Assembly: GCF_005930475.1 (NCBI RefSeq)
Contig: NZ_SJEW01000018.1
Coordinates: 1-64,000, forward strand
DNA length: 64,000 nt
Source: Modestobacter altitudinis
Lineage (GTDB): Bacteria > Actinomycetota > Actinomycetes > Mycobacteriales > Geodermatophilaceae
Reading direction: 5' to 3'
The notes beneath the pieces were generated by a model. The model saw only the letters and a list, made by a program, of their open reading frames with translations. It was not told the origin of the DNA and made no database searches. Of this stretch, positions 4,413 through 52,393 are shown in pieces (position 1 is the stretch's first letter; every line of letters starts with the position of its first letter). The position numbers were made by a program, and so were the translations under genes.

Positions 4413-5245
4413 TGTCCCGCAAGGAGAAGAACTGGTGGATCGTCGCCGGCGTCCTGATCGTCATCTACGCGCTGTTCCCGGTCGCCTGGATCGTGTCGCT
4501 GTCGTTCAAGGCGCCCAGTGACCTGACCAACGGACAGTTCCTGCCCACCGACGCGACGTCGGAGAACTACAAGGGGATCTTCACCGGCGCCGGCGGCGAC
4601 CTGTTCCTGCCTGCCCTGCGCAACTCCTTCGGCATCTGCCTCATCGCGACGCTGATCTCCTGCATCCTCGCGATGTTCGCCGCCTACGCGATCGCCCGGC
4701 TGGACTTCCCGGGCAAGAAGTTCATCCTCGGCACGGCGCTCGCGGTGGCGATCTTCCCGGTCATCTCGATCGTGACGCCGCTGTTCAACCTGTGGCGCAA
4801 CATCGGCCTCTACGACACCTGGCCGGGTCTGATCATCCCGTACCTGTCACTGACCCTGCCGATCTCCATCTGGACGATGTCGGCGTTCTTCCGGGAGATC
4901 CCCTGGGAGATGGAGCAGGCCGCTCAGGTCGACGGGGCGACGACGTGGCAGGCGTTCCGCAAGGTGATCGTGCCGCTGGCCGCACCGGGCGTCTTCACCA
5001 CGGCGATCATCGCGTTCTTCATCGCCTGGAACGACTTCATCTACGGCATCTCGCTGACCTCGACCAGCGCGTCCCGGCCGGTGCCGGCGGCGCTCGGACT
5101 GTTCTCCGGCGCCTCCCAGTTCGAGGACCCCACCGGGGTGATCGCGGCGGCCGCGGTCATCGTGACCATCCCGGTCGTCGTCCTGGTCCTGCTGTTCCAG
5201 CGGCGCATCGTCGCCGGTCTCACCAACGGCGCTGTGAAGGGCTGA
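4412..5245 (+). CDS. sugB: Sugar ABC transporter permease, SugB-like
   Basis: Second permease of the importer, 277 aa (MalG/SugB type), with six predicted membrane spans; the first is WWIVAGVLIVIYALFPVAWI. The cytoplasmic EAA motif is EQAAQVDGA with RKVIVPLAAPG. MalG-type permeases end with a short cytoplasmic tail, as here (FQRRIVAGLTNGAVKG). The start overlaps the sugA stop by 1 bp, and the ATPase gene follows after 43 bp. The length agrees with mycobacterial SugB. Confidence 0.86.
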   Translation: MSRKEKNWWIVAGVLIVIYALFPVAWIVSLSFKAPSDLTNGQFLPTDATSENYKGIFTGAGGDLFLPALRNSFGICLIATLISCILAMFAAYAIARLDFPGKKFILGTALAVAIFPVISIVTPLFNLWRNIGLYDTWPGLIIPYLSLTLPISIWTMSAFFREIPWEMEQAAQVDGATTWQAFRKVIVPLAAPGVFTTAIIAFFIAWNDFIYGISLTSTSASRPVPAALGLFSGASQFEDPTGVIAAAAVIVTIPVVVLVLLFQRRIVAGLTNGAVKG

Positions 5246-5288
5246 CCCTGATGCGCACCCGAACCGACCTCCCGGAGGGGAAGAACTG

Positions 5289-6605
5289 ATGGCCGAGATC
5301 CAGATGGACCACATCGTCAAGCAGTACGGCGACGGCTTCCCGGCGGTGAACGACGTCAGCCTCGACATCGCCGACGGGGAGTTCATGATCCTGGTCGGAC
5401 CGTCCGGCTGCGGGAAGTCCACGCTGCTGCGGATGATCGTCGGGCTGGAGGACATCACCAGCGGCGACATGGTCATCGGCGGCAAGCGGGTCAACGACAA
5501 GGCCCCGCGGGAGCGCAACCTGTCGATGGTCTTCCAGAACTACGCGCTCTACCCGCACCTCACCGTCTTCGAGAACATCGCCTTCCCGCTCCGGCTGGCG
5601 AAGATGGACGACGGCGAGGTGCGTCGCCGGGTCAACGAGGCGGCCGACGTCCTGGAGCTGCACGAGCACCTGGAGCGCAAGCCGGCCAACCTCTCCGGTG
5701 GCCAGCGCCAGCGGGTCGCCATGGGCCGGGCCATCGTCCGGCAGGCGGAGGCGTTCCTCTTCGACGAGCCGTTGTCCAACCTCGACGCCAAGCTGCGCGG
5801 CCAGATGCGCACGGAGATCTCCCGGTTGCAGCGCCGGCTGGGCATCACCACCGTCTACGTCACCCACGACCAGACCGAGGCGATGACCCTCGGCGACCGG
5901 GTCTGCGTGCTGCGCAAGGGGAAGATCCAGCAGGTCGCCTCACCGCGTGAGCTCTACGACCAGCCGGTCAACCTGTTCGTCGCCGGGTTCATCGGCTCGC
6001 CGCCGATGAACTTCCTGCCCGCCCGGCTGGAGGGTCGCTCGCTGTCGACGCCGTTCGGTCCGGTCGAGCTCGATGACAAGCGGGCTGCCGCGGTGGCCGG
6101 CCGGGAGCTGCTGCTGGTCGGGATCCGGCCGGAGTACTTCGAGGACGCCTCGCTGGTCGATGACGCGAAGCGGCCGCTGGGCTCGGTGTTCCGGGCCCGG
6201 GTCGACGTCACCGAGTGGCTCGGTGACCAGCAGTACGCCTACATCCCCTACGAGGCGCCGGAGGAGATCACCAACCAGCTGCGGGCACTGTCCCGCGAGC
6301 TGGACGCCGAGGAGCTGCGCACCCAGGCGATCGTGTCGATCGACTCGACCAGCCGGATCCGGGAGGGCCGGGAGGCCGAGTTCTGGCTGGACAGCCGGAA
6401 GGTGCACGTCTTCGACCCGAGCACCGGGGAGAACCTCACCCGCGACGCCGAGGCCGGTGCCGCACTGACCCGGATGGCGGCGGAGGACCGCGAGGAGCAG
6501 ATCGCCGGGTCCGCCGGCGGCCGCAGCTCCGGTGGCATGGGCACCTCCTCCTCCGGCGGTGCGGGGACGAGCTCGGGTGGCGCCCGCGCGGCGGGCGCCG
6601 CCTGA
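5289..6605 (+). CDS. sugC: Sugar ABC transporter ATP-binding protein, SugC/MsmK-like
   Basis: ATPase subunit, 438 aa. Walker A is GPSGCGKST (residues 37-45), the signature is LSGGQRQRV, Walker B is FLFDEP with SNLDAK, and the H-loop is THDQTEAM. A C-terminal regulatory TOBE/MalK-type region follows (about 240-390). The last 35 or so residues are a Gly/Ser/Ala-rich tail absent from ordinary SugC proteins of about 390 aa, which explains the extra length. It is the last gene of the importer operon; a strong hairpin lies just downstream. MsmK/SugC ATPases can serve several sugar importers, so it may not be dedicated to this one. Confidence 0.87.
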   Translation: MAEIQMDHIVKQYGDGFPAVNDVSLDIADGEFMILVGPSGCGKSTLLRMIVGLEDITSGDMVIGGKRVNDKAPRERNLSMVFQNYALYPHLTVFENIAFPLRLAKMDDGEVRRRVNEAADVLELHEHLERKPANLSGGQRQRVAMGRAIVRQAEAFLFDEPLSNLDAKLRGQMRTEISRLQRRLGITTVYVTHDQTEAMTLGDRVCVLRKGKIQQVASPRELYDQPVNLFVAGFIGSPPMNFLPARLEGRSLSTPFGPVELDDKRAAAVAGRELLLVGIRPEYFEDASLVDDAKRPLGSVFRARVDVTEWLGDQQYAYIPYEAPEEITNQLRALSRELDAEELRTQAIVSIDSTSRIREGREAEFWLDSRKVHVFDPSTGENLTRDAEAGAALTRMAAEDREEQIAGSAGGRSSGGMGTSSSGGAGTSSGGARAAGAA

Positions 6606-9523: not shown

Positions 9524-10375
9524 TCAGGTGGCGGCGATCGACGCCGGGCGGCCGGGCTCCCCGGTGCGGGCCAGCGGGTCGATCGGGCTCCGCGCGGCCT
9601 GGCAGCTCGGGCACCAGTAGGTCACCCGTTCCTGGGTGTCCGGGCCCTGGTCGCCCAGCAGGATCGTGGTGCGGCAGCGGCGGCACGGCCGGCCCTTCCG
9701 GCCGAACACCCAGTGGTCCTCCCCGCGCTGGGTGGAGCCGGTGGTGCTCTGCTCGGGGTGGTCGCGGTTGGCCTGCATCAGGGTGCGGGCGCGGGTGACC
9801 AGGCCGGCCAGGTCGGGGACGTCGGCCACCCGGGTCCACGGGTGGGTGCGGGTCATGAACAGCGTCTCGACCTTGTAGAGGTTGCCGATGCCGGCCAGGT
9901 TGCGCTGGTCGAGGATGGCGACGCCGATCTGCTCGTCGGGGTGCGCGCGGAGCCGGCGCAGCGCCTCGTCCAGGTCCCAGTCCGGGCCCAGCACGTCGGG
10001 TCCGAGGTGGCCGACCAGCTCACCCTCGGCGCTGGTCGGGACGATCCGCATGTCGTGCAGCCGGTACCCGACGCAGTCCCACTCGTCGGTGCCCAGGACG
10101 GCCCGGATGCTGTGCGCGGGGCCGCCCCTCCAGGGTCTGCCCTTCCGGTAGATGTGCCAGCTGCCGTCCATCCGGTAGTGCGTGCGCAGGGTGCGGCCGT
10201 CGGCGAAGCGGGTGAGCATGTGCTTCCCGCGCGGCACGACCTCGGTGACGGTGACACCGGCGAGGTCGACGGTGGCCAGCTGCGGCACGCGCAGCTCGCC
10301 CTTGGTGAGCGTGGCGCCGGCCAGCGCGGTGTTCATCCGGTTGGCGGCCAACCAGACGGTGTCTCCCTCGGGCAT
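9524..10375 (-). CDS. nei2: Nei2-type DNA glycosylase, copy A
   Basis: Formamidopyrimidine-DNA glycosylase/endonuclease VIII family, 283 aa; removes oxidised bases and nicks the strand. It starts MPEGDTVW, the form typical of actinobacterial Nei2, with Pro2/Glu3 as the catalytic residues after Met removal. A helix-two-turns-helix (LDQRNLAGIGNLY) and a C-terminal zinc finger (CRRC ... CPSC) are intact. The start is the ATG at 10375; the frame stays open further upstream with no sensible protein. It is one of two tandem paralogues on the same strand: copy B lies 65 bp upstream. Part of the gene (9857-10249) is nearly identical in DNA to copy B, while both ends differ clearly. Transcription probably comes from copy B's promoter. 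Confidence 0.9.
   Translation of the reverse strand: MPEGDTVWLAANRMNTALAGATLTKGELRVPQLATVDLAGVTVTEVVPRGKHMLTRFADGRTLRTHYRMDGSWHIYRKGRPWRGGPAHSIRAVLGTDEWDCVGYRLHDMRIVPTSAEGELVGHLGPDVLGPDWDLDEALRRLRAHPDEQIGVAILDQRNLAGIGNLYKVETLFMTRTHPWTRVADVPDLAGLVTRARTLMQANRDHPEQSTTGSTQRGEDHWVFGRKGRPCRRCRTTILLGDQGPDTQERVTYWCPSCQAARSPIDPLARTGEPGRPASIAAT
9857..10249. repeat. Near-identical segment shared by the two nei2 copies (repeat unit 1)
   Basis: Compared base by base with 10776-11168 (offset 919), this 393-bp block shows three mismatches (at 9916, 9917 and 10092). The surrounding parts of the two genes are visibly more diverged, with many changes including amino-acid changes. The pattern suggests gene conversion after an older duplication. 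Confidence 0.9.
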
Positions 10376-10439
10376 CCCGCCATGATCCCTGCCTGCGCGC
10401 GCTCGTGCCGACCTGGTGCCGTCGGTGCCGGCCCGGTCG

Positions 10440-11303
10440 TCACTCGTAGCGGGCGCGGCGCGCCTCGGTGCCGGGCTCGCCGGTGCGGGCCCGGGGGTCG
10501 ACCGGCGTGGGCGTTGCCTGGCACGTGGGGCACCACCAGGTGATCCGCTCCTGCAGGTCGGGTCCCTGGTCGCCGAGCAGGATCGGCGTCCGGCAGCGGC
10601 GGCAGGGCCGGCCCTTGCGGCCGGCGACCCAGTGGTCCTGCCCGCGGCGGGTCTCACCGGTGGTGCTCTGCGCAGGACGGCCGCGGTTGGCCAGCATCAG
10701 GGTGCGGGCGCGGGTGACCAGGCCGGCCAGGTCGGGGACGTCGGCCACCCGGGCCCACGGGTTCACACCGCTCAGGAACAGCGTCTCGACCTTGTAGAGG
10801 TTGCCGATGCCGGCCAGGTTGCGCTGGTCGAGGACAGCGACGCCGATCTGCTCGTCGGGGTGCGCGCGGAGCCGGCGCAGCGCCTCGTCCAGGTCCCAGT
10901 CCGGGCCCAGCACGTCGGGTCCGAGGTGGCCGACCAGCTCACCCTCGGCGCTGGTCGGGACGATCCGCATGTCGTGCAGCCGGTACCCGACGCAGTCCCA
11001 CTCGTCGGTGGCCAGGACGGCCCGGATGCTGTGCGCGGGGCCGCCCCTCCAGGGTCTGCCCTTCCGGTAGATGTGCCAGCTGCCGTCCATCCGGTAGTGC
11101 GTGCGCAGGGTGCGGCCGTCGGCGAAGCGGGTGAGCATGTGCTTCCCGCGCGGCACGACCTCGGTGACCGTCGCCCCGGCGAGGTCGACGGCGGCCAGCT
11201 GCGGCACGCGCAGCTCACCCCGGCGCAACGTGGCACCGGCCAGCGCCGTGTTCATCCGCTGGGCGGCCAGCCAGACGGTGTCTCCCTCGGGCACGACGAC
11301 CAT
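10440..11303 (-). CDS. nei2: Nei2-type DNA glycosylase, copy B
   Basis: Second Nei2-type glycosylase, 287 aa from the ATG at 11303, or 284 aa if the GTG at 11294 (VPEGDTVW) is the start. The catalytic step requires Pro then Glu directly after the initiator, so the GTG at 11294 is more plausible biochemically. The LDQRNLAGIGNLY loop and zinc finger CRRC ... CPTC are intact. It differs from copy A mainly in the first 45 residues and in the C-terminal third (ETLFLSGVNPWA against ETLFMTRTHPWT). In Mycobacterium a nei2 gene neighbours lhr; here lhr lies about 0.8 kb upstream on the same strand with one opposing gene between. Confidence 0.9.
   Translation of the reverse strand: MVVVPEGDTVWLAAQRMNTALAGATLRRGELRVPQLAAVDLAGATVTEVVPRGKHMLTRFADGRTLRTHYRMDGSWHIYRKGRPWRGGPAHSIRAVLATDEWDCVGYRLHDMRIVPTSAEGELVGHLGPDVLGPDWDLDEALRRLRAHPDEQIGVAVLDQRNLAGIGNLYKVETLFLSGVNPWARVADVPDLAGLVTRARTLMLANRGRPAQSTTGETRRGQDHWVAGRKGRPCRRCRTPILLGDQGPDLQERITWWCPTCQATPTPVDPRARTGEPGTEARRARYE
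10776..11168. repeat. Near-identical segment shared by the two nei2 copies (repeat unit 2)
   Basis: Partner of 9857-10249, in direct orientation, 919 bp apart. Recombination between the two units would delete one gene and leave a single hybrid nei2. Confidence 0.9.
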
Positions 11304-11476
11304 GGTCCCCGGCGCAGTCGTTCCGTGCCCGGACCTCCGCGGTCCGGGGGTGGCCGGAAGCGGGCACCGGACCCTGGTGACGACCGTCCGGTCCCCCCGG
11401 AAGGGTGTGGCCAGCTGTGAGCGGGGTGACAGCCGGGAACAGCCCGCGCTCCGCCGGTGCTCGAGTGCCCGTGACC

Positions 11477-12055
11477 ATGTCGACGCGACTGCGCAGCCTC
11501 ACCAGCGCCCCGGCTCCGCAGCCGGTCACGGAGCCCGTCACGGTGACCGTGGCCCGGGTCGTGCGCCCGGAGCAGCAGGATGCGTTCGAGCGCTGGGCGG
11601 CCGAGATCCAGGAGCTGCTCGCCGGGTTCCCGGGCAACCTCGGTTCCTCGCTGCTCCGCCCTGGTCGGGGCAGCGACGAGTTCCACCTGGTCTTCCGGTT
11701 CACCGACGACGAGGCGCTGAGCGCCTGGGAGCGGTCGCCCGAGCGGGCCGAGGCCCTGGCGCGGGTGCACCAGCTGGTCGAGGACTCACGCACCGCCCGC
11801 GCGGTCGGCCTGGAGACCTTCTTCGCGGTGCCGGCCAAGCCCGGTCCGGCCTGGCGCAGCTGGCTGCTCACCGTCGCTGTCGTCCTGGCGATGACCACGA
11901 CGTTCCAGCTGGTCGCCGTGCCGTTCGTCGGCGGCTGGCCGTGGGGCCTCCGACTGGTGGTGTCGGCGGTCTTCGTCGTGTCGGCGCTGCGGGTGCTGAT
12001 GCCGCGGCTCAGCCGCTGGCTGGGTCCCTGGTTGCAGGGCTCGCGCCGCCGCTGA
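11477..12055 (+). CDS. Membrane-anchored antibiotic-biosynthesis-monooxygenase (ABM) domain protein
   Basis: Protein of 192 aa from ATG 11477; a longer start at 11405 is possible but its extra residues are low-complexity. Residues about 20-105 have the ABM/dimeric alpha-beta-barrel pattern (TVTVARVVRPEQQDAFERW, and FHLVFRFTDDEALSAWERS), a fold found in small monooxygenases and haem-degrading proteins. Two membrane spans follow (WLLTVAVVLAMTTTFQLVAV and LRLVVSAVFVVSALRVLM), so the domain probably sits at the cytoplasmic face. It runs opposite to nei2 and lhr. Function is unknown. Confidence 0.75.
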   Translation: MSTRLRSLTSAPAPQPVTEPVTVTVARVVRPEQQDAFERWAAEIQELLAGFPGNLGSSLLRPGRGSDEFHLVFRFTDDEALSAWERSPERAEALARVHQLVEDSRTARAVGLETFFAVPAKPGPAWRSWLLTVAVVLAMTTTFQLVAVPFVGGWPWGLRLVVSAVFVVSALRVLMPRLSRWLGPWLQGSRRR

Positions 12056-12091: not shown

Positions 12092-15000
12092 TCAGCTGCG
12101 CAACCGCAGGCCCCGCGGGGTGGCCGCGAACCCGGCGGCCTGCAGCGCGGCGCTGAGCGGGCCGGACTCGTGCACCGAGGCGCCGTCGGCCTTCTGCACC
12201 GTCATCCGCCCGAGCGCCCCGGAGGCCACCGCGGACGACAGCGCCGTCGCGGCCTCCTTGAGCACCGTCTCGTCCTCGGTCCAGGACAGCAGCGTCTTGC
12301 CGCCCCGCTCCACGTACAGCACGAGCTCGCCGTCGACGAGCACCACCAGCGCGCCGGCCTTGCGCCCGGCCCGGTGCCCGGTCCTGCGGCTGCCGGTGCC
12401 CTCGCCGACGTCGATGCCCGCGACGGAGCCCTCCACGGACCCGTCGGCGGAGCCCACCGCCCGCTCGGGCCAGGGCAGGGCGGCGCCGTAGACGTTGGCC
12501 GGGTCGGTCGCGGCCAGGACGACCGGCCCGGCGGGCACCCGGTCGGGGCTGGCGAAGCTGCGCAGCCGGTCGATGGAGCCCGGCGTGCCGAACTGGGCCG
12601 CACCGAGGGTCTCCACGAAGTACCCGCGGCGGGCCCGGCCGTTCTCCTCGAACGCCCGCAGCACCGGGTACACCGCGGAGAACCCGCCGACCACCTGCTC
12701 GGCCTGCACCGCCCCGCGGGTCAGGACGCCGTGCCGCTCCAGCAGCGCCTCGCTCCGGGCGGTGGTCCGCTTGGTCGTGTTGCCCTCCAGGTCCGGCAGC
12801 CGCGACCAGCGGCCGGCCATCGCCGGCGGGCCGGTGCGGGTGGGCATCGCCGGCCGCCCGAGCCGGGTGCGGCCGTACCGGGTCCGGTCCAGCCGGGCGC
12901 GCGGAGCGGCGGGTTGCCGCTTGTGGGTGCCGCCGCCGGCCAGCCGCACCCGCAGCGGCGCCAGCGTGTCGTTGGTCAGCGCGCCGGCCCAGACGAGGTC
13001 CCAGATCTCCTCGGACAGGGCGGTGTCGTCGGTCGCGCCGACCCGGTCGGACAGCGACCGGAAGAACATCGCCTGACCGCCGGCGAGCTCTTCGAGCAGT
13101 GCCGCGCCGTACCCGCCCTCCACCGAGGCGGCCCCGGGGGGCTCGGGCAGCAGCAGCGGCGCCAGGTCGGCCGGCACGAGGGTCACCCAGCCGTCGCCGC
13201 CGGACAGCCCCCCGGCACCGGCCCACAGCACCTCGCCGGCGCTGGTCAGCTCGTCCAGCAGCGCGGGGGAGTAGTTCTGCACCCGCGACGGCAGCACCAG
13301 CGACTCCAGCGCCGACGCGGGCACCAGCGCGCCCGCCAGCTGCTCGACGACGGCGAGGACGCCGTCCACCCCGCGCATCCGGCCGCCCACCGACTGCCAG
13401 GACGGGGTGAAGCGGGCCAACGTCTCGATCGGGACCGGCTCGACCTCCTGGCGCAGCTTGGCCAGCGACCGCCGCCGGACCGACCGCAGCACCTCGGCGT
13501 CGCACCACTCCTGGCCGATACCGCCGGGCCGGAACTCGCCGGTGACCAGCCGACCGGTGCCGACCAGCCGCTGCACGGTGGCGGTGACGACGGCTACCCC
13601 CAGCCCCAGCCGGGCCGCGGCCTCGGGCGGCGCGAACGGGCCGTGGGTGCGGGCGAACCGGCCGATCAGGTCACCCAGCGGATCCGCGACCGGCTCGGTG
13701 AACGCCTCCGGGACCCCGACCGGCAGGGCCGTGCCCAGCGCGTCGCGGAGCCGGCCGGCGTCCTCGATGGCGACGTACCGCTGCTCCCCGGCGATCCGGA
13801 CCACCAGGGCCCGCCGGGAGACGACCAGCTCCTCGAGCCACTCCGCCGGCACGCCCCGGGCCGCCGCCTCGGCCACGGTGAGGTCGCCCACCCCGCGCAG
13901 CAGGTCGCTGGCACCGTCGACGTCGCGAGGGTGCCGTTGCTCCGGGAGTCGCTGCAGCTCCGCCTCGACCTCGGCCATCGCGTCGGCGTCGAGCAGCTCG
14001 CGCAGCTCGGAGCGGCCCAGCAGCTCGGCCAGCAGCCCGGTGTCCAGGGCGAGTGCCTGGGCGCGGCGTTCGGCGAGCGGGGCGTCGCCCTCGTAGATGA
14101 ACTGGCCGACGTAGCCGAACAGCAGGGACTGGGCGAACGGGGAGGCGGACTGGGTCTGCACGTCGACCACCCGCACCCGCCGGGCGCGCACGTCGCTCAT
14201 CAGCTCGACCAGGCCCGGCACGTCGTAGACGTCCTGCAGCACCTCCCGGACCGCCTCCAGGGTGATCGGGAAGCCGGAGAACTCGCTGGCCACCGACAGC
14301 AGCTGGGCGGCCCGCTGCCGCTGCTGCCACAGCGGCGTCCGGCGCCGCGGGTCGCGCCGGGGGAGCAGCAGGGCCCGGGCGGCGCACTCGCGGAAGCGGC
14401 TGGCGAACAACGCCGAGTTGCCGACCTCGGCGGTCACCTCCCGCTCGACGTCGTCGGGGTCGAGGATCGCCAGGTCGGCCTCGGGGGCCTCACCGGTGGT
14501 GTCCGGGAGCCGGAGCACGATGCCGTCGTCGGAGTGCATGGAGGCGACGTCGACGCCGTAGCGCTCGCGCAGCCGGGAGGCCAGCACCAGCGCCCACGGG
14601 GCGTTGACCTGCGCGCCGAAGGGGGAGTGCACGACCAGCCGCCAGTCGCCCAGCTCGTCGCGGAACCGCTCGACCAGCAGCGTGCGGTCGTCGGGCAGGT
14701 GGCCGGTGGCCTGCTTCTGCTCGGCGAGGTAGGCGAACAGGTTGGCCGCGCCCCACTCGTCGAGACCGGCGGCGCGGGCCCGGTCGGTGCCGGCCTCTGG
14801 GGTGGCCGAGCCGACCTCGCGGAGGAACGCGCCGAGCGCGCGGCCGAGCTCCAGCGGCCGGCCGAGGGTGTCGCCGTGCCAGAACGGCATCTTCCCCGGC
14901 AGCCCGGGCGCGGGGGAGACCAGCACCCGGTCGTGGGTGATCTCCTCGATCCGCCAGGACGACGAGCCGAGCAGGAAGACGTCGCCGACCCGCGACTCGT

Positions 15001-16714
15001 AGACCATCTCCTCGTCGAGCTCGCCGACCCGCTTGCCGCCCTCACCCTTGCCGGAGACGAGGAAGACACCGAACAGGCCGCGGTCGGGGATGGTGCCGCC
15101 ACTGGTGACCGCCAGCCGCTGGGCGCCGGCGCGCGCGGTGAGGGTGTCGGTGACCCGGTCCCAGGTCAGCCGCGGCCGCAGCTCGGCGAACGCGTCGGAG
15201 GGGTAGCGGCCGGCCAGCATGTCGAGCACCGCGTCCAGGGCGGAGTCCGGCAGCGCGGCGAACGCGGCGGACCGGCGCAGCACCCCGGCGACGTCGTCGA
15301 CGGTGCGTGGCCGCTCGGACACCATGGCCACGATCTGCTGGGCCAGCACGTCCAGTGGGTTGCGCAGGTAGCGGGTGGACTCGATGGCGCCGGCCCGCAT
15401 CCGCTCGGCGACGACGGCGCTCTGCACCAGGTCGCCGCGGAACTTCGGGAAGATGACCCCCTCGCTGACCGCGCCCACCTGGTGCCCGGCCCGGCCCACC
15501 CGCTGCAGGCCGGCGGCGACGTTGGGCGGGGACTCGACCTGGACGACGAGGTCGACCGCGCCCATGTCGATGCCGAGCTCGAGGGAGGACGTGGCCACGA
15601 CGGCGGGCAGCTGGCCGGACTTCAGCGCCTCCTCGACGACGGCGCGCTGCTCGCGGGAGACCGAGCCGTGGTGCGCCGAGGCGACCGGCTTGACGTCGGC
15701 CGGCAGCCCGCCACCGGCGCCGGCCTGCGCCATCACGTCGGCGGGGTTCGCACCGTGCGGCAGCGGCTCCCCGGTGGCCCGTTCGTAGGCCAGCTCGTTG
15801 AGCCGGCTGGTGAGCCGTTCGGCCAGCCGGCGGGAGTTGGCGAACACGATGGTGCTGCGGTGGGACTGGATGAGGTCGAGCACCCGCTCCTCGACCGCCG
15901 GCCAGATCGACGTCCGCGGCTGGTTGCCGGCCGCGGACCCCTCCAGCTCACCGGTCGGCTGGCCGAGCTGGCTCATGTCCTCGACCGGGACGACGACCGA
16001 CAGGTCCCACTGCTTGACCGACGGCGGAGCGACCACCTGCACCGGGCGGCCGCCGGCCAGGAAGGTGGACACCTCCTCGATGGGCCGCACGGTGGCCGAC
16101 AGGCCGACCCGCTGGGCCGGCCGCTCCAGCAGCTCGTCGAGCCGGTCGAGGGAGACGGCCAGGTGGGCGCCGCGCTTGGTGCCGCAGACCGCGTGCACCT
16201 CGTCGAGGATCACCGTCTCCACCCCGCGCAGCGCCTCCCGCGCCTGGCTGGTGAGCAGCAGGAACAGCGACTCCGGGGTGGTGATCAGGATGTCCGGCGG
16301 GCGGCGGGCGAAGGTGCGGCGCTCGTCGGCCGGGGTGTCGCCGGAGCGGACGCCCACGGTGATCTCCGGCCGCGGCAGCCCGAGCCGGGCGGCGGCCTGG
16401 CCGATGCCGGTCAGCGGCGCCCGCAGGTTCCGCTCGACGTCGACCGCCAGTGCCTTGAGCGGGGAGACGTAGAGGACGCGGCAGCGGGCGAGCGGGTCCT
16501 CCGGGGGCGGGGTGGCGGCCAGCCGGTCCAGCGACGAGAGGAACGCCGCCAGTGTCTTGCCCGAACCGGTCGGTGCCACGACGAGGGCGTGCTCACCGCT
16601 GCTGATCGCCGCCCAGGCGCCCTCCTGGGCCGCCGTCGGCTGCTCGAAGGCACCGGTGAACCACGCCTGGGTCGGCGCGGAGAACCGGGTCAGAGCCGAG
16701 TCGGTGACGGACAC
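12092..16714 (-). CDS. lhr: ATP-dependent helicase Lhr
   Basis: Superfamily 2 DNA/RNA-translocating helicase, 1540 aa, the usual size of full-length Lhr. Q-motif-like PTAAQEGAW is followed by Walker A APTGSGKT (47-54), Walker B ILDEVHAV (near 170), motif IV-VI region SLELGIDMGAVDLVV and QRVGRAGHQ. The C-terminal half is the long Lhr extension with winged-helix and DEAD/H-associated regions. A GTG start at 16714 (VSVTDSALTRF) is preferred because known Lhr proteins begin just before the RFSxxTxAWF stretch; the frame remains open to 16885. Mycobacterial Lhr is a damage-inducible 3'-5' translocase; no SOS box was seen here. It points away from the KTSC gene. Confidence 0.95.
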   Translation of the reverse strand: MSVTDSALTRFSAPTQAWFTGAFEQPTAAQEGAWAAISSGEHALVVAPTGSGKTLAAFLSSLDRLAATPPPEDPLARCRVLYVSPLKALAVDVERNLRAPLTGIGQAAARLGLPRPEITVGVRSGDTPADERRTFARRPPDILITTPESLFLLLTSQAREALRGVETVILDEVHAVCGTKRGAHLAVSLDRLDELLERPAQRVGLSATVRPIEEVSTFLAGGRPVQVVAPPSVKQWDLSVVVPVEDMSQLGQPTGELEGSAAGNQPRTSIWPAVEERVLDLIQSHRSTIVFANSRRLAERLTSRLNELAYERATGEPLPHGANPADVMAQAGAGGGLPADVKPVASAHHGSVSREQRAVVEEALKSGQLPAVVATSSLELGIDMGAVDLVVQVESPPNVAAGLQRVGRAGHQVGAVSEGVIFPKFRGDLVQSAVVAERMRAGAIESTRYLRNPLDVLAQQIVAMVSERPRTVDDVAGVLRRSAAFAALPDSALDAVLDMLAGRYPSDAFAELRPRLTWDRVTDTLTARAGAQRLAVTSGGTIPDRGLFGVFLVSGKGEGGKRVGELDEEMVYESRVGDVFLLGSSSWRIEEITHDRVLVSPAPGLPGKMPFWHGDTLGRPLELGRALGAFLREVGSATPEAGTDRARAAGLDEWGAANLFAYLAEQKQATGHLPDDRTLLVERFRDELGDWRLVVHSPFGAQVNAPWALVLASRLRERYGVDVASMHSDDGIVLRLPDTTGEAPEADLAILDPDDVEREVTAEVGNSALFASRFRECAARALLLPRRDPRRRTPLWQQRQRAAQLLSVASEFSGFPITLEAVREVLQDVYDVPGLVELMSDVRARRVRVVDVQTQSASPFAQSLLFGYVGQFIYEGDAPLAERRAQALALDTGLLAELLGRSELRELLDADAMAEVEAELQRLPEQRHPRDVDGASDLLRGVGDLTVAEAAARGVPAEWLEELVVSRRALVVRIAGEQRYVAIEDAGRLRDALGTALPVGVPEAFTEPVADPLGDLIGRFARTHGPFAPPEAAARLGLGVAVVTATVQRLVGTGRLVTGEFRPGGIGQEWCDAEVLRSVRRRSLAKLRQEVEPVPIETLARFTPSWQSVGGRMRGVDGVLAVVEQLAGALVPASALESLVLPSRVQNYSPALLDELTSAGEVLWAGAGGLSGGDGWVTLVPADLAPLLLPEPPGAASVEGGYGAALLEELAGGQAMFFRSLSDRVGATDDTALSEEIWDLVWAGALTNDTLAPLRVRLAGGGTHKRQPAAPRARLDRTRYGRTRLGRPAMPTRTGPPAMAGRWSRLPDLEGNTTKRTTARSEALLERHGVLTRGAVQAEQVVGGFSAVYPVLRAFEENGRARRGYFVETLGAAQFGTPGSIDRLRSFASPDRVPAGPVVLAATDPANVYGAALPWPERAVGSADGSVEGSVAGIDVGEGTGSRRTGHRAGRKAGALVVLVDGELVLYVERGGKTLLSWTEDETVLKEAATALSSAVASGALGRMTVQKADGASVHESGPLSAALQAAGFAATPRGLRLRS

Positions 16715-16847
16715 GCCGTCCAGTGTCCACGCAGGTACGACAGTCCGCCCTGGGCCGAGCGGCGCTGGTCCTGGCATCGACATGTCGCCATCCGGGTCCG
16801 CGGGAATGACAATGGTGTGGTTCATCGTCGTCCCGGAGGAGGGAGCG

Positions 16848-17072
16848 ATGCTGCGGCAGAGGGTCGAGTCGTCGAACATCGCCATGGTCGGTTACGACGA
16901 GGAGGAACAGGTCCTCGAGATCACCTTCCGGGACGGTCGCGTCTACCACTTCCTCGAGGTGCCGCCCGAGCGGGTGCTCTCGCTGCTGCGGGCCGAGAGC
17001 AAGGGCGGGTTCTTCAACCGCGAGATCAAGCCGGAGTTCGAGTACCGGGCTGTCGGTCGCCGCTGGGGTTGA
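16848..17072 (+). CDS. KTSC domain-containing small protein
   Basis: Protein of 74 aa that is essentially one KTSC domain: VESSNIAMVGYDEEEQVLEI, then FRDGRVYHFLEVPPE and the terminal SKGGFFNREIKPEFEYR. The name-giving KTSC segment is SKGGFFNR here. ATG 16848 has GGAGGAGGGA just upstream. Divergent from lhr, 133 bp apart. KTSC domains occur alone or fused to nucleic-acid enzymes; the function is not established. Confidence 0.85.
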   Translation: MLRQRVESSNIAMVGYDEEEQVLEITFRDGRVYHFLEVPPERVLSLLRAESKGGFFNREIKPEFEYRAVGRRWG

Positions 17073-52328: not shown

Positions 52329-52393
52329 AAGAAGTCGGCGTCCGGGGCTGGACTTGTCGGGGGGATGCGGTAGACATCGCACAGACGTTCGAC

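Follow-up and report, generated by a model that had tools for sequence, protein, structure and literature searches.

Mycobacterial Nei2 is the closest described counterpart of the genes analysed here. The M. smegmatis enzyme is an AP lyase and a 5-hydroxyuracil glycosylase acting on single strands, with catalytic roles assigned to P2 and E3, and mycobacterial Nei2 acts alongside Lhr in psoralen crosslink repair; it is needed against such crosslinks, and the discussion of that study leaves open which feature it recognizes within them (PMC11323726). The Modestobacter genes share with M. smegmatis Nei2 and its lhr-nei2 operon the Fpg/Nei fold, Pro2, Glu3, Lys51, the tetracysteine zinc site and an adjacent lhr; they differ in that there are two copies, one of which (A) is altered in the loop that follows the H2TH motif, and in that an opposite-strand ABM gene separates lhr from nei2 (PMC11323726). 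Escherichia coli endonuclease VIII (Nei) has the same fold (1k3w, TM 0.77/0.85, 28% identity) and the same catalytic Pro and Glu. E. coli carries Nei as a single copy, which is not known to be linked to lhr in this way.

Tandem paralogues are known to undergo gene conversion. In prokaryotic concerted evolution, recurrent conversion leaves same-genome paralogues closer to each other than to their orthologues, a likeness to our pair; unlike the cases in the main text of that article, only part of the gene is homogenized here, diverged stretches are kept and the effect is clear in two to three of 15 genomes (PMC6053082). The word 'glycosylase' is absent from that main text. Under the bolder reading discussed below, the ruminant CEA family is also comparable, with conversion homogenizing the genes and selection for difference opposing it, although these are animal immune genes (PMC7042247). 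A search of the literature on Modestobacter endonuclease VIII, Geodermatophilaceae gene conversion, Nei2-Lhr and paralogue conversion, judged partly by titles, turned up neither this pair nor its derived Nei2 form.

Two Nei2-like genes beside lhr

The window (the whole 64,000-nucleotide stretch analysed) comes from a 5.18-Mb draft genome of 161 contigs, G000 in our survey. It contains nei2B followed by nei2A, in tandem on the same strand and separated by 64 nt (Table 1). We take GTG 11294, rather than ATG 11303, as the most likely start of nei2B because it gives the required N-terminal Met-Pro-Glu. Upstream of the start in most A and B copies of the 15 genomes with a pair lies a conserved stretch resembling GGGGAYCATGG, which may combine a ribosome-binding site and an ATG ahead of the start.

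Table 1. Features of the nei2 locus and its surroundings in the window
Feature	Position	Strand	Details
nei2A, downstream copy	9524..10375	-	283 aa; ATG start at 10375 (Met-Pro-Glu-Gly)
nei2B, upstream copy	10440..11294	-	284 aa; probable start GTG 11294; alternative in-frame ATG 11303
Zinc-finger region, nei2A	9602..9685	-	Cys231, Cys234, Cys255, Cys258; within diverged 3' segment
Zinc-finger region, nei2B	10521..10604	-	Cys231, Cys234, Cys255, Cys258; within diverged 3' segment
Conversion block, nei2A (inferred donor)	9857..10249	-	codons 43-173
Conversion block, nei2B (inferred recipient)	10776..11168	-	codons 43-173
Second identical stretch, nei2A	9776..9832	-	codons 182-200; 0/57 mismatches
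Counterpart of second identical stretch, nei2B	10695..10751	-	codons 182-200
Loop after second H2TH helix, nei2A	9833..9856	-	codons 174-181; MTRTHPWT
Ordinary loop, nei2B	10752..10775	-	codons 174-181; LSGVNPWA
ABM-domain ORF, between lhr and nei2B	11405..12055	+	Pfam ABM
lhr, large helicase-related protein	12092..16885	-	NF007284, 1607.9 bits (cut-off 1496); Lhr winged-helix Pfam domains

Both reading frames are open and both products show the marks of the Fpg/Nei superfamily: a Met-Pro-Glu N terminus, the two Pfam domains Fapy_DNA_glyco and H2TH above their gathering scores, and a tetracysteine zinc finger together with Lys51. Pro2, Glu3, Lys51 and the four cysteines (231, 234, 255 and 258) are invariant in both copies across a 32-row alignment. 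The best NCBIfam family is NF040775 (Nei2), at 269.6 bits for nei2A and 266.2 for nei2B; as these scores lie under its equivalog cut-off of 400 bits, we call both copies Nei2-like. Among solved structures, M. smegmatis Nei2 (8tjg) is closest to both by sequence (E 1.8e-58) and is also the best fold match of the nei2A model (pLDDT 92; TM 0.81/0.91) in a fold search that covered copy A; locus L110 was left out of the structure alignments. By analogy with the mycobacterial enzyme, A and B would both be active DNA glycosylase/AP lyases on oxidized pyrimidines and AP sites, and both would probably serve in Lhr-linked crosslink repair.

As in mycobacteria, lhr adjoins the nei2 genes on their upstream side. 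Because the ABM-domain gene lies between them on the opposite strand, lhr and nei2 do not form one simple operon here. An abm match occurs in 84 of 112 locus rows, which overlap in that several genomes are counted twice and include some incomplete loci. M. lapidis (L117) and G019 (L131) are without an abm match, and the gap from lhr to nei2 there is about 80 and 170 nt, respectively. A consensus for PafBC-type promoters had one match in the window, at 52354 with two mismatches, which is no more than chance expectation, and none near the nei2 genes.

Among 23 genomes of the genus (G000-G022), 15 carry an intact B-A pair, six carry one gene and G016 has A with a partial B; G015, which is 72% complete, gave no nei2 match. 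The intact pair is also present in the one- and two-contig assemblies G007, G020, G014 and G017. Of 80 named loci, ten hold two adjacent copies (one being the truncated case); nine are titled Modestobacter and the tenth is Geodermatophilaceae bacterium URHA0031 (G006). Loci of Klenkia, Blastococcus and Geodermatophilus, some of them incomplete, have one nei2 copy at the same place.

Tandem Nei2-like genes also occur in another family of the order (L147-L152; G174, G103, G123, G110, G117 and G067), with a pspA and/or lhr match nearby in five of the six loci, as a likeness to the Modestobacter pair. Unlike that pair, these proteins are 50-58% identical in their first part and 42-50% in the rest, with no highly similar part in this two-part comparison. 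The extra copy there begins MPEGDS and is of a different kind.

The near-identical block and how it arose

From the sequence of this locus alone, the initial annotation had described a 393-bp block shared with three mismatches between flanks, coding sequence included, that differ at about one base in five to seven. An ungapped comparison at an offset of 919 bears this out: the block differs at 3 of 393 positions (9916, 9917 and 10092), with a longest exact run of 174 bp (9918-10091), and the coding flanks differ at 18 of 126 positions on the 5' side (codons 1-42, 14%) and 67 of 330 on the 3' side (codons 174 to the end, 20%). None of 10,000 permutations reached the longest concordant run. In a segment scan the best low-divergence segment was codons 43-172, with a log-likelihood gain of 42.3 against a maximum of 10.5 among 210 control comparisons of orthologues (105 A-A, 105 B-B); the gain was 33.8 in G010 and 5.9-13.4 in the 13 other pairs. 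A whole-genome search found no third copy of the block, the two further matches being only 43 and 32 bp long. The earlier description of a homogenized catalytic core holds for Lys51 and most of the H2TH domain, which lie inside the block, and fails for Pro2 and Glu3, which like the zinc finger lie outside it. The diverged C-terminal part does contain the zinc finger (Cys231-Cys258), as had been noted.

Two copies lying head to tail on one strand, 64 nt apart and with a near-identical middle, could be read as a simple recent tandem duplication whose flanks have changed faster. That reading is refuted by the related genomes, in which the intact pair occupies the same place (15 of 23 in the genus) and the core is 8-18% diverged in 13 pairs; an abrupt shift in dS between A and B along the gene, from 0.290 (codons 2-42) to 0.010 (block) and back to 0.333 (codons 174-280), also speaks against it, and we give it almost no credence. 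Nor do synonymous sites allow purifying selection alone to have kept the catalytic middle alike without conversion. The middle does hold Lys51 and the greater part of the H2TH domain, but constraint on the protein cannot erase synonymous differences in two genomes only, and the block dS of 0.010 here compares with a mean of 0.275 in the 13 other orthologous pairs; we consider this explanation refuted and hardly conceivable.

An assembly error, in which reads belonging to A ended up in B, deserves attention in a draft of 161 contigs, all the more as the genomes with similar tracts, G010 and G006, are also drafts (180 and 30 contigs). However, the block contains three differences, and none of its exact runs is longer than 174 bp, a length usually covered by paired reads; G010, with a tract of its own, and G006, with an eroded one, were assembled separately; and the pair itself is present in the one- and two-contig assemblies. 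We therefore regard such an error as very unlikely. Inter-strain recombination is generally common in bacteria, and the B block might have been imported from another Modestobacter strain instead of from the neighbouring A. The G000_B core, however, lies 0.008 from G000_A and at least 0.053 from the 52 other copies compared, making an import of this kind very improbable.

The comparison with orthologues of related genomes, which the initial annotation had proposed, showed that block divergence is not uniform across pairs. Over all 14 other Modestobacter pairs it ranges from 2.5 to 18%: G010 (M. excelsi) differs at 10 of 393 positions and the 13 other intact pairs at 30-72 of 393, such that the tract is absent from most orthologous pairs. 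Weaker or smaller low-divergence segments were found in eight of those 13 (permutation p<=0.05), and no segment stands out in G005, G009, G012, G018 and G020, five of the 14 other pairs (p>0.05). The 3' segment is 19-26% diverged in all 15 pairs, which does not fit long-lasting concerted evolution of the whole gene across the clade. Segment trees disagree with one another, the block grouping by genome and the flank by copy. Together with the dS values and the diagnostic sites described below, the related genomes and segment trees back the original suggestion of gene conversion instead of a simple recent duplication, and on these sequence comparisons conversion is the right reading of the block in this genome.

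Conversion ran from A as donor to B as recipient. We defined 45 diagnostic sites on 13 pairs, leaving out G000 and G010 and including G006 and G008. Across codons 57-171, G000_A is A-type at eight of nine sites, and G000_B likewise carries the A-type base at eight of nine, with B-type bases at the bordering codons 35 and 174. A-type runs also occur in other B copies: G006_B (8/8) and G010_B (5/8) over codons 57-113, and G008_B (4/9) over codons 57-171. No A copy has B-type bases at two neighbouring sites within codons 57-171. In the core tree, G000_B groups with G000_A (100/95) and G010_B with G010_A (99/96), and G006_B falls within the A clade (98/91). An A-only clade of 16 copies that excludes these B copies was rejected (p-AU 0.038), though AU tests leaving out one recipient each fell short of significance (p 0.25 and 0.345). 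Of at least 58 non-pair loci, 17 entered the nei2 trees. From the diagnostic-site runs and the core tree, A-to-B conversion was independent at least in G000 and G010. G010 carries a recent tract of its own and the tract of G006 is eroded, both in the same direction.

Beyond the block, divergence on the 3' side is uneven, with 9 of 24 mismatches in codons 174-181, none of 57 in codons 182-200 and 13 of 60 in codons 201-220. In this second, short stretch of 57 nt the 14 other pairs have 3-14 mismatches, three of them only 3-4. The conversion tract therefore probably extends to codon 200 and spares the eight-codon loop 174-181, which is flanked by stretches totalling 3 mismatches in 450 positions.

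Age and origin of the pair

The pair is old, marking one clade of Modestobacter, and does not stem from a recent duplication. In a species tree built from pieces of lhr and pspA by a quick method with SH-aLRT support only (39 genomes, G015 absent), the 15 pair genomes cluster with G016 and G002 in a single clade (99), five single-copy Modestobacter are set apart (95) and Klenkia joins 'Modestobacter sp. Leaf380' (100). Two members of this clade depart from the intact arrangement. In G016 (L128, about 5030-5410) nei2B is reduced to its C-terminal part beside an intact A, and this truncation means that B has been dispensable at least once. G002 (L135, 6213-7058), which is fragmentary and 80% complete, has a single nei2 of mixed type and an unrelated reading frame between nei2 and pspA; a search of that interval for traces of another copy returned only the gene's own end and weak matches (E>=0.69).

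The C-terminal parts of A and B have separate histories. In the C-terminal tree A is a clade (100/98) and joins single Modestobacter genes (98/95), and B forms a group only together with Klenkia (100/99). Topology tests on this part just rejected A and B as one clade (p-AU 0.046) and did not reject B alone as a clade (0.399). The third-position distance between B and Klenkia in the C-terminal part is 0.29-0.31, where partial saturation is possible, compared with 0.29 for lhr and 0.22 for pspA; as the distance is close to that of lhr, the separation of the C-terminal parts roughly coincides with the genus split. The direction of conversion, the age of the pair and these separate histories all go beyond the initial annotation.

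Instead of an old duplication followed by losses, B may have been gained by transfer from a Klenkia-like donor and placed beside a resident A. The grouping of B's C-terminal part with Klenkia favours such a transfer, for which a single event suffices. Yet a B-Klenkia distance equal to that of lhr and greater than that of pspA would put the transfer at roughly the age of the genus split, and codons 43-173 of B have no clear affinity to Klenkia. We hold this origin to be a genuine possibility, while leaning against it. The notion that the pair replaced another, lost Nei-like gene found no support in a check made with the extra copy of family f10; beyond the nei2 locus, Modestobacter with and without the pair gave only weak extra matches (31-35% identity).

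We thus consider it likely that a long-standing tandem pair of Nei2-like genes beside lhr, belonging to one Modestobacter clade, has undergone recent, non-reciprocal copying from A to B, with the loop, finger and tail still distinguishing the copies. Homologous recombination within the pair copied codons 43-173 of nei2A, and probably codons 182-200 too, onto nei2B, where loop 174-181 kept its B sequence. The shared middle would be exchanged now and then, and the loop, zinc finger and tail would hold the copies apart.

The spared loop, the zinc finger and the tail

In the models the loop follows a helix (165-174) that we take to be the second H2TH helix. A and B differ there at 7-10 of 24 positions in all 15 pairs. 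The initial annotation had pointed to the segment ETLFMTRTHPWT / ETLFLSGVNPWA, and residue counts across A, B and single copies identify it as a paralogue-specific feature. Arg176-Thr177 is present in 16 of 16 A copies, none of 15 B copies and none of 23 single copies; Gly176 is present in all 15 B and all 23 single copies. Seven residues are fixed in the 16 A copies and rare elsewhere (Thr24, Thr35, Thr171, Arg176, Thr177, Phe224 and Thr247, protein numbering), of which only Arg176 and Thr177 are missing from every B and single copy. None of the single copies examined has Met174, Arg176 or Thr177, and some of them share Phe224, Thr247 and Tyr253 with A. Among the 80 named loci the Arg-Thr pair is confined to those with an A copy, and Arg alone occurs in two other motifs. 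These patterns suggest that B is the ordinary Nei2 form and A a derived one.

A and B are most strongly differentiated at codons 1-8 (which include the start codon), 21-28, 170-181, 209-228 and 241-256, and in the tail. As a control we used Klenkia, four of the six single-copy Modestobacter genes (without G002 and G003) and six of the ten Blastococcus/Geodermatophilus genes. At codons 169-181 and 241-256 A was equally distinct from Klenkia and the basal single copies, which marks these two islands as changes special to A, not as proof of selection against conversion. Over codons 29-168, differentiation was 0.15 for A-B, 0.28 for A-Klenkia and 0.27 for A-basal singles, and among group pairs unable to convert it was 0.16 (Klenkia-basal), 0.12 (B-Klenkia) and 0.10 (B-basal). 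A genus-wide homogenized core is suggested by a distance ratio of 0.79 versus 1.12, which relies on Klenkia, itself near B in the C-terminal part; the suggestion is weakened in that A-B differentiation is no lower than in the groups unable to convert.

How the loop escaped, and whether the copies differ in function, can be read in more than one way. Conversions that erase the loop, finger or tail may be selected against, or may be rejected through excess sequence difference; two separate tracts or patchy mismatch repair could also have spared the loop without any selection. As enzymes, A and B would owe their differences to the loop and to the zinc-finger and tail segments, and the earlier proposal that the two differ in lesion choice is plausible. 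Its bolder form, which we put forward tentatively and think may well be wrong, is that A and B are two Nei2s specialized by lesion or DNA structure, their core kept alike by repeated A-to-B conversion and selection guarding the islands (loop, zinc-finger hairpin and tail). For the C-terminal part, dN/dS amounts to 0.13 within A, 0.20 within B and 0.47 between the A and B of one genome. The copies may instead be functionally redundant, with loop and tail differences that have drifted and conversion that is neutral. The loss of the N-terminal part of B in G016 fits redundancy, as does the greater variability of B (core dN/dS 0.26, against 0.15 in A), but some loop differences are fixed within class over 15-16 genomes and purifying selection persists on both classes; we find redundancy doubtful too.

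The locus provides a clear example from bacteria of a partial conversion in which one stretch was spared, and it carries a caution, as trees of such genes mislead unless they are cut into segments. Two Nei2 forms maintained in one clade, whose fixed differences lie beside the H2TH motif and within the C-terminal part, point to residues to test. If A and B are indeed specialized, these genomes would provide a natural series of core-swapped chimaeras with which to map the residues that set Nei2 specificity.
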